A stretch of DNA of 6,130 nucleotides from Lachnospiraceae bacterium UBA6452 (GTDB lineage Bacteria > Bacillota > Clostridia > Lachnospirales > Lachnospiraceae), in contig DJNY01000138.1 in the NCBI GenBank assembly GCA_002441865.1, positions 1-6,130 on the forward strand, given 5' to 3'. The notes beneath the pieces are model-generated. The model saw nothing but the letters and a program-made list of their open reading frames with translations. It did not search any database and was not told the DNA's origin. A program made the translations under genes and the position numbers. Positions 625 through 6,017 of the stretch are shown one piece after another. Each line of letters starts with the position of its first letter. Within the stretch, counting starts at the first letter, position 1.

Positions 625-1464
625 CTATTCTGTTGCTTTACAGATTTCCTCATACAATGCGTCACGCAGACGGAACAGTGTTTCCCGGTCTTTTCCGCCG
701 ACCAGCTCTCCGTCCAGCTCATCCACATACATGCAGACATGGGAGGAAGATGTCACGATGATCTCATCCGCATTTCGCAGATCCTCCAGATAGTAAGGTG
801 TCTCGCTGACACCGATCCCCAGCTTTTTGCACATACGCACCAGATGTGCCCTTGCAATGCCCGGCAGGATCATATCATCCGTCGGTGCAGTATATAAGAT
901 GCCATCCTTTAAGATATGACAGTTGCAATGTGCACATTCTGTGATCCTGCCATCATGGCGATACAGAATTGTCTCATCCGCGCCCGCTTTATACGCCTTC
1001 TCCGCATACAATACGGAAGGCAGCAGGTTCAGCGTCTTGCAGTTACAGTAGAAGAACCGTTTATCTTCCGCTGTCACACACTTGATCGGCTTCTGACACG
1101 GATCGATATGATCCGGCTTGATCATAACCCACAGATTGCCCGGGCCTTTTTCATATACATGGTTTCGGATTCCCGTTCCTCTTGTACATGCCCAGTAAAC
1201 AAAATTGTCGCCCGTATCCATTTTCTGCACAAGAGAAGCCAGAAGCTCCTTCAATTCTTCCTTGGAGCATGGGATTTCCATATCCATCAGCTTTGCGGAA
1301 TTGAAAAAGCGGTCAATATGTTCGTCGATCGCAAACAGATGATAATTTCTCGCCGGACCTGCATCATAGACACCGTCACCGAAGAAACATACCCTGTCAT
1401 CAAAAGGTACCATCATTTTTTCCAGTTCATCATAGGTTCCATTGTAATATCCTAATGTTTTCAT
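625..1464 (-). CDS. dat: D-amino-acid aminotransferase (PLP fold type IV, EC 2.6.1.21)
   Basis: Cytosolic PLP enzyme of 279 residues, the usual family length, which interconverts D-alanine + 2-oxoglutarate and pyruvate + D-glutamate. Visible signatures are FGDGVY at 28-33, EHIDRFF at 48-54, RGTGIRNH at 95-102, CKTLNLLPSVL at 142-152 with K143 as the expected PLP lysine, TE at 175-176 before the cofactor-binding N181, and ILPGIAR further on. Tyr33, Arg100 and His102 align with Tyr31, Arg98 and His100 of the Bacillus D-amino-acid aminotransferase, which bind the substrate carboxylate; this favours D-specificity over branched-chain aminotransferases or aminodeoxychorismate lyase. The alignment is by eye from family knowledge. 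I chose the ATG at 1464: it overlaps the upstream stop as ATGA and lies 9 nt after AGGAGG. The in-frame ATG at 1470 is only 3 nt from it, and an upstream ATG at 1548 lies deep inside the previous gene. Overlap with the DUF4392 gene implies translational coupling. Confidence 0.9.
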   Translation of the reverse strand: MKTLGYYNGTYDELEKMMVPFDDRVCFFGDGVYDAGPARNYHLFAIDEHIDRFFNSAKLMDMEIPCSKEELKELLASLVQKMDTGDNFVYWACTRGTGIRNHVYEKGPGNLWVMIKPDHIDPCQKPIKCVTAEDKRFFYCNCKTLNLLPSVLYAEKAYKAGADETILYRHDGRITECAHCNCHILKDGILYTAPTDDMILPGIARAHLVRMCKKLGIGVSETPYYLEDLRNADEIIVTSSSHVCMYVDELDGELVGGKDRETLFRLRDALYEEICKATE

Positions 1465-2300
1465 GCGCATATACCTCCTTGTTCTATCCTTTCCAGTGCT
1501 GTAATGATTTCCTGCTCTGTCAGCATGCTCTTCCCATCCACCGTACATGTCATTTCATGTGTCACGCCGTCCACACTTCCGATCTCCACCGTTCTGGCTA
1601 TGTAGGATCTGATCCAGTCAAAATCCGGAAGCAGCTTTTGTCCCACACGTCCGGACAGAGCTGCCACGATCCCGTAAGCACCCCAGTTGGACACGGTTGC
1701 AACGACCAGAATGTCGGTGCTGACCACGCAGGGCTCTAACGAGAGCTTTCTGCTGATCGCGCCTGCGATCTTTCCCATACCGATCTCATTGCCGCCATCT
1801 CCTACGCCGATCGAAGGAATAATGCCTTGGTAAGCCACAAACAACTCATCGATGGGAGCTGTGTGTTCGCTGATGCTCACGCCCCGCATATTGGCGTATT
1901 GCAGGAAACGGTTTCTGCCACAGCGTTCGACCGAGATCATTCCCTTCGGCTGATAAGTATCGATCAGTTCCTGAAAGGTCTCCTGATCCGCATCATACGG
2001 TACATAGACAGTGGGCAGCATTTCCAGTTCAAAAAAGCCCTGACACGGCTGATCCGTCAGGATCACCGGCTGATAACCGAGTCTCTGCAAAGCCAGTGCC
2101 AGCACCACCGTTCCTGCAGGACCGTCTGTCTCTGCATATCCCGCCACATAAAATCCGGTCGTTAAAAACACAATGCCCTTCTCCCAAGACAGGATTTCCT
2201 GTGCTGCCTTTTCGCAGCAGTTGTCCGATACATATCGCCTGATATACGGTATTCCACGCTGCGAATAACGCAAAATAACATCTTCAATGGTTTCTGTCAT
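1461..2300 (-). CDS. DUF4392 protein, like the C-terminal domain of D-glutamate cyclase (DGLUCY)
   Basis: A 279-residue soluble protein with no signal peptide or membrane segment. It carries the DUF4392 family motifs: TTGFYVAGYAETDGPAG at 47-63, SVERCGRN at 123-130, GVGDGGNEIGMG at 165-176, and STD...VSNWGAYG at 194-210. In vertebrates this domain forms the C-terminal half of mitochondrial DGLUCY, which converts D-glutamate to 5-oxo-D-proline. Here it stands alone, while the DUF1445 half is coded two genes upstream. The acidic and glycine-rich motifs suggest a metal or phosphate/nucleotide site, but the free-standing activity is not known to me. I chose the ATG at 2300 over that at 2306: AGAAGGG (2307-2313) gives a 6-nt spacer to 2300 but directly abuts 2306. 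Only 15 nt separate it from the pxpA stop, and it overlaps dat by 4 nt. Family assignment is strong; the reaction is inferred from DGLUCY and from context. Confidence 0.88.
   Translation of the reverse strand: MTETIEDVILRYSQRGIPYIRRYVSDNCCEKAAQEILSWEKGIVFLTTGFYVAGYAETDGPAGTVVLALALQRLGYQPVILTDQPCQGFFELEMLPTVYVPYDADQETFQELIDTYQPKGMISVERCGRNRFLQYANMRGVSISEHTAPIDELFVAYQGIIPSIGVGDGGNEIGMGKIAGAISRKLSLEPCVVSTDILVVATVSNWGAYGIVAALSGRVGQKLLPDFDWIRSYIARTVEIGSVDGVTHEMTCTVDGKSMLTEQEIITALERIEQGGICA
1473..1480 (-). promoter_or_regulatory. Ribosome binding site that sets the dat start
   Basis: AAGGAGGT on the minus strand, near-perfect against the 16S rRNA tail, lies within the end of the DUF4392 gene. It leaves 9 nt between AGGAGG and the ATG at 1464 but only 3 nt to the ATG at 1470, which favours 1464. 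Confidence 0.8.
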
Positions 2301-2315
2301 ACGCATCCCTTCTTT

Positions 2316-3083
2316 CTAGGCGATCACCTGCGTGATCGGTACTATGGTGACACCTGCCTCTGTGAGCTGCTCCTGCAGCAGCCTGGCAAATGCAACAGCC
2401 TTTTTCCCATCCCCATGCAGGCAGACAGAATCTGCTTTGATCGGGATCTCTGTCCCGTCTATGCTGGTCACTACACCTTCCTGTACCATCCTTATCGTCC
2501 GCCGGACGGCTGGTTCCTCTTCTTCGATCACAGCGCCTTTCCGGGAGCGCGGGACAAGTGTTCCGTCCGCCTGATAGGCTCTGTCCGCAAATACTTCATT
2601 TGCTACTTTCAGTCCGGTCTCTTCTCCTGCCTTTACAAGCTCACTGCCCGACAGTCCCAGCAGGATCAGCCCGCTGTCCACCTCGTAAATGCCTTCTGCG
2701 ATCGCATATGCCAGCTTTTCATCTTTGGCTGCCATGTTATACATGGCACCATGCGGCTTTACGTGCTGCAGACTGACATGTGCTGCCTTGCAGAAAGCCT
2801 GCAGTGCACCGATCTGATACTGCACCATTGCCTTCACTTCCTTTGGACTGACTGCCAGATTCCGCCGTCCGAAGCCGACCAGATCCGGATAGCCCGGATG
2901 TGCACCGACTGCGACGTTTTTTTCTTTTGCCAGTCTGACTGTTTCCGCCATGACGACCGGATCCGACGCATGAAATCCACATGCCACATTGACAGATGAG
3001 ACATATTGTATGACCTCTTCATCCATACCGCATTTGTAGTTTCCGAAGCTCTCGCCCAGATCTGCATTCAAATCTACCTTCAT
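2316..3083 (-). CDS. pxpA: 5-oxoprolinase subunit A (LamB/YcsF family)
   Basis: Subunit A of the ATP-dependent 5-oxoprolinase PxpABC (EC 3.5.2.9), a cytosolic enzyme that hydrolyses 5-oxoproline to glutamate with ATP cleavage. The 255-residue product has the full set of LamB/YcsF motifs: an N-terminal VDLNADLGESFG (3-14), NVACGFHASDP at 32-42, GAHPGYPDLVGFGRR at 60-74, YQIGAL at 89-94, HVKPHGAMYN at 107-116, EVFADRAY at 163-170 and CLHGD at 221-225. The length is normal. The ATG at 3083 is the better start: AGGA at 3094-3097 leaves a 10-nt spacer, while the in-frame GTG at 3092 is almost inside the ribosome site and MKVDLNADLGE is the usual family N-terminus. The gene is split from its partners pxpB and pxpC by the DUF1445 gene and a 144-bp gap with a possible promoter of its own. 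Confidence 0.95.
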   Translation of the reverse strand: MKVDLNADLGESFGNYKCGMDEEVIQYVSSVNVACGFHASDPVVMAETVRLAKEKNVAVGAHPGYPDLVGFGRRNLAVSPKEVKAMVQYQIGALQAFCKAAHVSLQHVKPHGAMYNMAAKDEKLAYAIAEGIYEVDSGLILLGLSGSELVKAGEETGLKVANEVFADRAYQADGTLVPRSRKGAVIEEEEPAVRRTIRMVQEGVVTSIDGTEIPIKADSVCLHGDGKKAVAFARLLQEQLTEAGVTIVPITQVIA

Positions 3084-3227
3084 TCCGCACACATCCTTTC
3101 TGTATCCTGTTTACTCTTCCATATTCACTACTTCCGATGCAGTTTTTTGTCTCTGACACACTATTGATTTCTATTCTGGTTTCGGTTTCTATACCATTTT
3201 CTATTTCTATACCAAAGTTAGTGTATG
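3084..3227 (-). promoter_or_regulatory. Gap before pxpA with possible internal promoter and phased repeats
   Basis: A 144-bp noncoding, purine-rich (minus strand) gap. On the minus strand a plausible sigma-A promoter has -35 TTGGTA (3215-3210), a 16-bp spacer and an extended -10 TGgTATAGA (3196-3188). Both boxes are imperfect (four of six matches each); the TG extension helps. TTTCTATACCA occurs twice on the plus strand, at 3186-3196 and 3204-3214, exactly 18 bp apart. A degenerate third copy starts at 3168, and the shorter TTTCTAT occurs four times at starts 3168, 3186, 3198 and 3204, all multiples of 6 apart. The repeats overlap the promoter boxes, so a bound regulator could block or recruit polymerase. 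No terminator hairpin with a U-run was seen here. Confidence 0.4.
3186..3214. repeat. Tandem direct repeat TTTCTATACCA, 18-bp period
   Basis: Two exact 11-bp copies, 3186-3196 and 3204-3214, are read directly from the sequence. A third partial copy (TTTCTATTCTG) begins at 3168 with the same 18-bp step. The block lies between the DUF1445 gene and pxpA and overlaps the proposed internal promoter. It may be an operator, or chance in AT-biased DNA; no known binding motif was recognised. Confidence 0.6.
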
Positions 3228-4058
3228 CTAATATTTCAGGTTAATATTTTTCACATCCGTCACCAGCATATGCCCCGGTGCATGTGTGATACAAAAGCCT
3301 GGCTTTGATGCCATGACCACAGCCTGCGGTGTGACACCGCACGGCCAGAATACCGGTACTTCTCCTTCACGGATCGTAACCGCATCTCCAAAATCCGGCT
3401 TTGCCAGATTCCGGATTCCGATCACCTTTGGATCGCCGATATGGACAGGCGCACCATGTACCTTGGGCATCGCTCCTGTTACCTGCACCGCCTTTGGCAC
3501 CAGTGCATACGGAATAGGCCGCATACTGACAACCATATTTCCATGAAATACACCTGCGCTTTTACAGGCTATGTTCGTCCGGTACATCGGTACATTGCAA
3601 TGCTCCTCGATCTGTCTGACCGGAATATCCGCCTTCAGAAGCTCGCCCTCAAAAGAAAAGCTGCAGCCGATCAGGAAACTGACAAGATCTTCTCTCCAAA
3701 ATGCCGATACATCCGTGTACCTGCCTGTCAGCTCTCCGTTTTCGTAAATACAGTACTGCGGGATATCTTTTGCAATATCCGCATGATCGGCAATCTCACT
3801 TAAATATCTGTCCCCGGCATTTGTGACTTCCAGAATCGGACACGCTTTCGGATTTTTTGTTACAAACAGCAGAAAATCAAATGCCAGTTCCTTTGGAAGC
3901 ACCACAAGGTTAGCCTGTGCATACTCGCTGCACATACCGCTCGTTTCGCCGGTGATCTTTTCTTCCCGGATCAGCCGCCGCACTTCCTTTGGTGAGCTGT
4001 CCGCATAATCCGCTGCGCAGGTTCCGTCCGGGTAACTGTCTTCTATTTTATTTACCAT
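3228..4058 (-). CDS. DUF1445 / YcsI-family putative hydro-lyase, like the N-terminal domain of D-glutamate cyclase
   Basis: A 276-residue soluble protein with every hallmark of the DUF1445 (D-glutamate cyclase / putative hydro-lyase) family: YAQANLVVLP at 46-55, NPKACPILEV at 69-78, FLIGCSFSFE at 128-137, NVPMYRTNI at 155-163, MVVSMRP at 175-181, HGAPVHIGDP at 201-210, PVFWPCGVTPQ at 235-245 and THAPGHML at 258-265. It is full length and shows no lesion. In Bacillus subtilis the homologue ycsI sits in the ycsFGI-kipIA cluster. In vertebrates the same domain is the N-terminal half of DGLUCY, which cyclises D-glutamate to 5-oxo-D-proline. The conserved Cys, His and Glu residues suit a lyase or cyclase active site, but I cannot assign catalytic roles. 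The ATG at 4058 is preceded by a purine-rich AAGGAAGTGAGG. A 160-bp gap separates it from pxpC, so it may have its own promoter. Family is sure; the reaction is inferred. Confidence 0.9.
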   Translation of the reverse strand: MVNKIEDSYPDGTCAADYADSSPKEVRRLIREEKITGETSGMCSEYAQANLVVLPKELAFDFLLFVTKNPKACPILEVTNAGDRYLSEIADHADIAKDIPQYCIYENGELTGRYTDVSAFWREDLVSFLIGCSFSFEGELLKADIPVRQIEEHCNVPMYRTNIACKSAGVFHGNMVVSMRPIPYALVPKAVQVTGAMPKVHGAPVHIGDPKVIGIRNLAKPDFGDAVTIREGEVPVFWPCGVTPQAVVMASKPGFCITHAPGHMLVTDVKNINLKY

Positions 4059-5183: not shown

Positions 5184-5900
5184 TTACACGAATTCCGCAT
5201 GATATACTTTTTTCTCAACATCCTGTCTGATCAGCGCATATTCCTGCTCTGTCACAGAAACGAAACGGATATAATCTCCCGCATGACATAAAACAGGCGG
5301 ATCATTTGTCTGATCATAAAAGGCAAGCGGCGTCCGTCCGATCAGCCTCCAGCCGCCCGGTGAATCCATCGGATATACGCCTGTCTGGCTGCCTCCGATT
5401 CCTACTGATCTTGCAGGGATCTTTGTCCTCGGAACGGAAAGCCTTGGCATATGGATCCGTTCATCCAGACCACCCAGATACACAAAACCGGGGAGAAATC
5501 CCAGCATATAGATCTTGTAGTCCACGCTTTGATGGATCTGAATGATCTCTGCTTCACTCCTCCCAAGTTCCCGGCTCATCTCTCCAAGATCCGGTCCATC
5601 CTCCCCGCCATAGTGACAGGGCACAATGCGGATCCGTTTCTTTTCCTGTGTTTCGGCTGTCTGTCCAGCGGAAAGCTTCTTTATGACAGACAGCAGCTTC
5701 CGATAGGTTGTTTTTCCCTGATCATAAAAGATGAGCAGACTCCGGTAAGTTGGCAGAACTTCTGTTACACCTTTTGGGTGTGCTGCCTTGATCTGTGCTG
5801 CCAGATATTGTACGCGGTCGTTTGTCTGCACATTGATCACATTATCAAACTCACATAAAACCGCCTGATCGCCCACCGGACAGATACGAAAGACCTCCAT
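5184..5900 (-). CDS. pxpB: 5-oxoprolinase subunit B (KipI family carboxyltransferase domain)
   Basis: Subunit B of the ATP-dependent 5-oxoprolinase, which forms the catalytic pair with PxpC. The 238-residue product shows GDQAVLCEF at 10-18, VPCHYGG at 93-99, GPDL at 102-105, GFLPGFVYLGGL at 134-145, and the long conserved block at 157-191 including PRTKIPARSVGIGG, QTGVYP and SPGGWRLIGRTP. This is the full KipI/allophanate hydrolase subunit 1 pattern, slightly longer than E. coli PxpB (YbgJ) and close to B. subtilis KipI. I chose the ATG at 5900: AGAGGAAG lies 7 nt upstream of it. The in-frame ATG at 5918 precedes that ribosome site and directly abuts the terminator U-run. It is the first gene of the cluster, behind a leader with a terminator-like hairpin. 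KipI was first described as a KinA inhibitor; with pxpA and pxpC present, the metabolic role is much more likely here. Confidence 0.94.
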   Translation of the reverse strand: MEVFRICPVGDQAVLCEFDNVINVQTNDRVQYLAAQIKAAHPKGVTEVLPTYRSLLIFYDQGKTTYRKLLSVIKKLSAGQTAETQEKKRIRIVPCHYGGEDGPDLGEMSRELGRSEAEIIQIHQSVDYKIYMLGFLPGFVYLGGLDERIHMPRLSVPRTKIPARSVGIGGSQTGVYPMDSPGGWRLIGRTPLAFYDQTNDPPVLCHAGDYIRFVSVTEQEYALIRQDVEKKVYHAEFV

Positions 5901-5918
5901 AGGATCACTTCCTCTCAT

Positions 5919-5958
5919 AAAACGCGCAAAGGAGCATGCTTTCGCACACTCCTTCGCG
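5919..5958 (-). terminator. Intrinsic terminator-like hairpin in the pxpB leader (probable attenuator)
   Basis: On the minus strand, CGCGAAGGAGTGTGC (5958-5944) and GCATGCTCCTTTGCG (5939-5925) form a 15-bp stem closed by a GAAA tetraloop, followed after CG by UUUU (5922-5919). Three pairs are G-U on this strand; the same positions would be A-C mismatches in plus-strand RNA, so the structure belongs to the minus-strand transcript. It lies downstream of the promoter and just before the pxpB ribosome site, with no room for another promoter between them. The expected role is therefore conditional termination. The U-run is short, so termination may be partial. Confidence 0.65.
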
Positions 5959-5986
5959 GGAAACTTTTATTATGATAGCAAACAAG

Positions 5987-6017
5987 AAGGGACAATGTGT
6001 TGACCACATCGTCCCTT
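5987..6017 (-). promoter_or_regulatory. Upstream leader hairpin, candidate anti-antiterminator or protein/ligand site
   Basis: On the minus strand, AAGGGACGATGTG (6017-6005) pairs with CACATTGTCCCTT (5999-5987) around a 5-nt loop: 13 pairs including one G-U, which would be an A-C mismatch in plus-strand RNA. It begins about 7 nt after the predicted transcription start. The 3' arm can instead pair with the 5' arm of the terminator (CACA 5999-5996 with TGTG 5948-5945, CCTTC 5990-5986 with GAAGG 5955-5951), so the hairpins could form a switch. It is not followed by a clear U-run, so it is a poor terminator itself. No known riboswitch class was recognised. Confidence 0.5.

Follow-up and report, generated by a model that had tools for sequence, protein, structure and literature searches.

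The window analysed here, a 6,130-nucleotide stretch of Lachnospiraceae bacterium UBA6452 (contig DJNY01000138.1), carries on its minus strand a DUF1445 gene and a DUF4392 gene on either side of a pxpA-like gene. The two proteins are homologues of the N- and C-terminal halves, respectively, of the vertebrate D-glutamate cyclase DGLUCY, and together they may form a two-part, metal-dependent cyclase acting on D-glutamate and 5-oxoproline, a reading to which we assign, from the sequences, a probability of about one half. Functional coupling of the two halves is supported by their co-occurrence in genomes and by natural fusions in both domain orders, and the operon as a whole is likely a bacterial route linking D-glutamate and 5-oxoproline. 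The full-length mouse fusion has been assayed as a D-glutamate cyclase, and DGLUCY was reported to be the first enzyme of mammalian D-glutamate metabolism identified (PMC5339696). The minus strand reads, in order, pxpB, pxpC, DUF1445, pxpA, DUF4392, aminotransferase and the start of a PucR-type regulator:

5184 to 5918, minus strand: pxpB-like gene (CT_C_D), NCBIfam 5-oxoprolinase subunit PxpB, TIGR00370
4219 to 5160, minus strand: pxpC-like gene (CT_A_B), matched in Pfam and NCBIfam (TIGR00724)
3228 to 4058, minus strand: DUF1445 gene (PF07286, D-Glu_cyclase), homologue of the N-terminal half of vertebrate DGLUCY
2316 to 3092, minus strand: pxpA-like gene (LamB_YcsF, PF03746), matched in Pfam and NCBIfam
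1461 to 2300, minus strand: DUF4392 gene (PF14336), homologue of the C-terminal half of DGLUCY and of TON_0340
625 to 1464, minus strand: class IV aminotransferase gene, nearest solved structure the D-amino acid aminotransferase 1daa
3 to 614, minus strand: PucR-family regulator gene, its frame running off the end of the window

The original prediction, made from the DNA letters, described the DUF1445 and DUF4392 genes as full-length, intact family members flanking pxpA, and both statements hold: the frames contain no internal stops, the Pfam matches cover nearly the full profiles, and the three genes follow one another at 4058-3228, 3092-2316 and 2300-1461. The DUF4392 protein scores 238.8 bits against PF14336 (cut-off 27.9), covering positions 10-290 of the 291 in the profile; an NCBIfam search found no family for it. 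The DUF1445 protein scores 236.5 bits against PF07286 (cut-off 25), passes the NCBIfam putative hydro-lyase model NF003969 (412.5 bits, cut-off 324) and aligns over residues 20-271 to 2pif. The sole DUF4392 protein returned by a sequence search of the PDB is TON_0340, in which six acidic residues hold the metal (PMC5132392). All six are kept in the window protein, the ligands E59, D61, E115, D157, E161 and D246 corresponding to E57, D59, E125, D168, E172 and D255, and among 37 DUF4392 proteins chosen from the loci described below five of these positions are invariant and the sixth almost so.

The fusions were sought with an artificial query made by joining the two window proteins end to end. 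Among the best 120 of 1387 matches, 88 contain both domains; 66 of them have the order DUF4392-DUF1445, and the other 22 the order seen in vertebrates. Ten of these 22 are eukaryotic records, and bird GLUCM proteins appear in the same list. Bacteria contribute P0027 (Clostridia, 545 residues) and P0103 (Acidaminobacter, 522 residues). The predicted structure of P0103 reaches a pLDDT of 93.1 and a pTM of 0.90, and the domain arrangement of this natural fusion is thus confidently predicted. The fusion has been noted before, where it is described for higher animals (PMC5132392), and the bacterial examples widen that picture. Six of the 66 listed DUF4392-DUF1445 fusions (P0003, P0023, P0025, P0029, P0038 and P0062) carry a MurD-like domain between the two halves, and in a frame of locus L082 (3091-4878) a MurD-like part lies behind DUF4392. 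The best Mur model for the insert is TIGR01087 (murD), with 183-196 bits against a cut-off of 211.95; the match spans the model from position 1 to roughly 299 of 441, and the C-terminal part of the ligase is absent. MurD is the ligase that adds D-glutamate, and the insert therefore points again to this amino acid, while ligase activity of the insert itself appears doubtful. In the MurD-like sequences inspected, the ATP-loop motif is altered relative to the normal motif.

Co-occurrence was counted in 249 genomes of the phylum of Kineothrix and in 149 Planctomycetota, as raw counts that ignore kinship. Above the cut-offs, the first sample holds DUF4392 in 27 genomes, DUF1445 in 42 (three of these matches, in G051, G065 and G190, being fragments) and pxpA in 78. 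DUF1445 is present in 18 of the 27 genomes with DUF4392 against 24 of the 222 without it (Fisher p 5.7e-10, or 2.3e-9 when the centre genome is removed). The Planctomycetota give 12/12 against 4/137 (p 1.1e-14; 1.1e-13 minus the centre genome). One weak DUF4392 fragment below the cut-off (G255) was left out of the counts. Much of the association comes without linkage: the pair lies close together in only eight of the 18 Kineothrix-phylum genomes holding both and in one of the 12 Planctomycetota (G011, the centre), close linkage thus being absent from 21 of 30. DUF1445 also occurs in 12 of the 14 genomes that stand behind chosen DUF4392 loci (14 of the 80 loci). These comparisons stand without a matched control family, since PF07969, taken as background, is above its cut-off in 244 of the 249 genomes. 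An even sample of 185 Gammaproteobacteria yielded DUF4392 once (the centre itself) and DUF1445 twice, and the evidence for this group comes from loci only.

The association extends to the 5-oxoprolinase genes. The original prediction had proposed a count of DUF4392 given DUF1445 and pxpABC, and had mentioned that YcsI-type (DUF1445) genes near pxp genes are known. Among the Kineothrix-phylum genomes with pxpA, DUF4392 is found in 18 of the 42 with DUF1445 against two of the 36 without, and every one of the 42 DUF1445 genomes has pxpA. All 16 Planctomycetota with DUF1445 carry either pxpA or the Hydantoinase_B domain of OPLAH, against 101 of 149 overall (p 0.0013).

For gene neighbourhoods, public genomes were scanned with the DUF4392 protein of the window, the best 80 of 95 relatives being taken as loci; their gene content was called by tblastn of the window proteins. 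The linkage counts are minimum values, owing to short contigs among the loci. DUF1445 lies within 3 kb of DUF4392 in at least 43 of the 80 loci, on the same strand in all 43 and within 300 bases in 21. All six genes stand together in 19 loci, nine from Clostridia and ten from Gammaproteobacteria. The Clostridia loci have the gene order of the window; the Gammaproteobacteria show DUF1445, pxpA, pxpB, pxpC, DUF4392, aminotransferase, and a further order, pxpA-DUF1445-pxpB-pxpC-DUF4392, is seen in L093. In trees of the two families, from which matches no longer than 170 residues were dropped (two of the 80 DUF4392 loci and two of the 43 DUF1445 loci), the Lachnospiraceae and the Gammaproteobacteria six-gene members each form a single group. 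These groups are weakly neighbouring in the DUF4392 tree (86/46), and in the DUF1445 tree the Lachnospiraceae group stands with other Clostridia (100/98); the placements therefore show neither that the cluster was transferred once as a whole nor that it was assembled independently. In L031 (5799-7151) and ten other Planctomycete loci, a gene of a cluster whose representative carries an amidase signature (PF01425) precedes DUF4392 by 0.8-1.3 kb.

The strongest single pointer to 5-oxoproline is that DUF1445 is common to two unrelated 5-oxoprolinases. It follows the OPLAH-type Hydantoinase_B domain in all five long Planctomycete frames examined (L081, L083, L085, L087 and L088; the first two carry a whole OPLAH, the others being cut by contig ends) and in 55 of the 60 proteins that a search aimed at this architecture listed, one of them being the record of the query itself; it follows PxpC in P0033 and P0066. 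The OPLAH-DUF1445 architecture also appears in records named Zhuqueibacterota, Dadabacteria and KSB1.

These same chains, in which DUF1445 is joined to OPLAH or PxpC and DUF4392 is absent, favour a different arrangement, in which the halves are two enzymes working in series: DUF4392 would cyclise D-glutamate, DUF1445 would racemise 5-oxoproline through two invariant cysteines, and PxpABC or OPLAH would open the L form. The presence of a 5-oxoprolinase gene in every sampled DUF1445 genome of both phyla agrees with it, as does the conservation of Cys132 and Cys240, which never vary across 34 chosen DUF1445 proteins or across 19 natural fusions, birds among them (Cys73 is invariant in the former and not in the latter). 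Yet the reported product of the mouse fusion is 5-oxo-D-proline, the aminotransferase would be superfluous, the role given to the cysteines is an analogy with two-cysteine racemases, and the fold matches listed for the DUF1445 model name neither a racemase nor a cyclase, a result that excludes neither. This arrangement is possible, if rather unlikely; were it correct, the pair and a 5-oxoprolinase would invert D-glutamate to L-glutamate. Its fuller form is more speculative still. There, D-glutamate would be inverted by passing through the ring, the DHH-fold DUF4392 acting as cyclase and DUF1445 as a cofactor-free two-cysteine 5-oxoproline racemase, while ATP-dependent opening of the L ring by PxpABC or OPLAH pulls the sequence one way; in animals, DGLUCY would be what is left of this route, the MurD-like insert would connect the module with the D-glutamate of the cell wall, and DUF1445 would represent a new enzyme family.

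Under the preferred reading, that of a two-part cyclase, DUF4392, with its DHH-like fold and six-carboxylate site (Mn-binding in TON_0340), would activate the gamma-carboxylate, and DUF1445 would complete the site or handle the ring form. PxpABC would open the 5-oxoproline ring to glutamate at the expense of ATP, and the aminotransferase would exchange D-glutamate and 2-oxoglutarate. Both 5-oxoproline and D-glutamate, the latter with peptidoglycan as one possible source, would in this way enter central metabolism. It is possible that the cluster holds an ATP-independent route in parallel with the PxpABC route, as first proposed, although steps in series fit equally well. The aminotransferase keeps, as Y33, R100, H102, K143 and E176, the positions that we take to be the active-site residues of 1daa (Y31, R98, H100, K145 and E177), and of the 28 aminotransferases matched in the loci 27 retain the residues, L073 being the exception. 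In ten Gammaproteobacterial loci (eight six-gene loci and two on cut contigs), a gene from one cluster, with an alanine racemase as representative (Pfam), lies 0-80 bases past the aminotransferase gene. The two genes together would be expected if the amino group of D-glutamate passes to pyruvate and the resulting D-alanine is then recovered.

Several observations weigh against this reading. The association counts ignore kinship, and each half also occurs singly: in the Kineothrix phylum, DUF1445 is found without DUF4392 in 24 of 42 genomes and DUF4392 without DUF1445 in nine of 27, and in the one Thermococcus genome examined DUF4392 is present and DUF1445 was not found. Single occurrence is also what would be expected if the two families were unrelated in function and neighbours by chance, an explanation that is extremely improbable given the six-gene loci, the fusions in both orders and the co-occurrence without linkage. 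The original prediction had argued from the vertebrate fusion that the bacterial proteins form a complex or a two-part enzyme; functional coupling has stood, whereas a strict two-part enzyme is weakened by the halves that occur singly. The predicted fusion structure bears only indirectly on the separate window proteins, and the literature, in its accessible parts, names no catalytic half of DGLUCY. Nor is the gene set fixed. Three Gammaproteobacterial loci (L014, L022 and L024) have the pair together with the aminotransferase, but no pxpA was found in the stretch, and L015 has DUF1445, DUF4392 and the aminotransferase in a stretch where a search for pxp genes found none; PxpABC is therefore not always beside the pair. 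L080 comprises DUF4392, aminotransferase, pxpB and pxpC, with no DUF1445 nearby.

Further objections come from DUF4392 itself. TON_0340, the one DUF4392 protein assayed alone in the papers covered, is a Mn phosphatase (PMC5132392), and some DUF4392 genes not close to DUF1445 adjoin FGGY kinases (L092 and L094) or malic enzyme (L095), which indicates that the family is not confined to D-glutamate; others so placed have as neighbours biotin carboxylase genes (L030), a DegT-type aminotransferase (L039) or an HD-domain gene (L034). DUF4392 could accordingly be imagined as a small-molecule Mn phosphatase that clears a stray phosphorylated intermediate of 5-oxoprolinase or Mur-ligase chemistry, with DUF1445 alone as the cyclase. 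This is improbable: the compounds in the TON_0340 assay were those that the laboratory had at hand, its natural substrate being unknown (PMC5132392), and the presence of an aminotransferase and an alanine racemase gene nearby would have no explanation. The DUF4392 proteins of L092 and L094 are longer than usual; the genome of L094 (G251) has no DUF1445, and that of L092 (G204) has one about 450 kb away. They may be a separate subfamily working on phosphorylated compounds.

The remaining difficulty lies with the neighbouring enzymes. PxpC misses the equivalog model NF045499 (249.4 against 500), passing the broader TIGR00724 (292.6 against 230.2), and the aminotransferase falls below the equivalog cut-off of its top-scoring model, TIGR01121 (202.4 against 277.45), for which reason it is called D-amino-acid-aminotransferase-like. 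Both scores would suit an operon that acts on some other lactam or amino acid and whose family names mislead. We consider this very improbable, since PxpA and PxpB pass NCBI models (the subfamily model NF003814, 384.7 against 226, although PxpA is below the cut-offs of the three equivalogs NF003813, NF003815 and NF003812; TIGR00370, 211.3 bits against 145.55), the aminotransferase active site is kept, and DUF1445 accompanies both 5-oxoprolinase types.

The DUF1445 and DUF4392 families, DGLUCY, pxpABC and the company of DUF1445 with pxp genes are already known; what is new is the putative operon logic and the additional fusions. DGLUCY (9030617O03Rik, C14orf159; EC 4.2.1.48, mitochondrial) shares with the window both domains and the metal ligands of the C-terminal one. 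However, it is a single chain in animals, whereas the window has two genes with pxpA between them and thus a split homologue, not DGLUCY itself; the cyclase assay concerns the mouse protein only. TON_0340 of Thermococcus (PDB 4dwz, 4fc5, 5gkx and 5gl2-5gl4) is alike in family and in its six metal-binding residues but stands alone, while the window DUF4392 has a DUF1445 partner gene. The bacterial pxpABC-ycsI cluster has pxpA, pxpB, pxpC and DUF1445 in common with the window, which adds DUF4392, the aminotransferase-like gene and the PucR-type regulator and has a pxpC below the PxpC equivalog cut-off. The OPLAH-type enzymes with C-terminal DUF1445, from Planctomycetota and others, likewise tie this domain to a 5-oxoprolinase, but the latter is unrelated and a single chain, and DUF4392 lies elsewhere in the five genomes examined. 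The split form is already in print: Table 1 of PMC11580864 gives nFull 0 and nSplit 6 for GLUCM_HUMAN in gut bacteria, near-adjacent genes that together cover the human protein. In its accessible part that paper gives counts only and no pathway, whereas full-length bacterial fusions are found here (P0027 and P0103). Among the open papers listed, judged by titles and abstract openings and with subscription literature mostly outside, none concerned a bacterial assay of the pair or fusions of these domains with OPLAH, PxpC or MurD-like parts.

A stretch of Kineothrix sp. MSJ-39 (L001, Lachnospiraceae) is 91% identical to the whole window, and there the open frame of the PucR-type regulator is longer. 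Judged from the letters, the pxpB start is likely 5900 rather than 5918 and that of pxpA probably ATG 3083 rather than GTG 3092; for DUF4392, 2300 looks better than 2306 because the spacing to AAGGG is normal only with the former. The DUF4392 stop and the aminotransferase start share four bases (ATGA), the start being preceded by AAGGAGG, and the two genes are therefore probably translated jointly. An Rfam scan of the window gave no matches at gathering scores, and a search of the gaps preceding pxpA and DUF1445 found no repeats. Promoter-like sites are rarer in the window than in shuffled sequence (4 against a mean of 8.3) and terminator-like sites commoner (9 against 4.2). Before pxpB, at 5925-6017, lie two minus-strand hairpins with stems of 15 and 13 pairs and no Rfam match; they likely end a transcript coming from upstream, where L001 has folD, or act as a leader element. 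Past the regulator, and a few genes farther downstream, L001 (12899-16836) carries genes for a Liv-type ATP-binding cassette (ABC) transporter (binding protein, permeases and ATPase); among the Lachnospiraceae loci the permeases are present in seven and the binding protein in six, and the transporter is possibly the uptake system.

If the proposed function is correct, a widespread pair of poorly characterised families would constitute a module for D-glutamate and 5-oxoproline. The split bacterial halves, the fusions in both orders and the DUF1445-oxoprolinase fusions make the division of labour between the two domains testable with small proteins.

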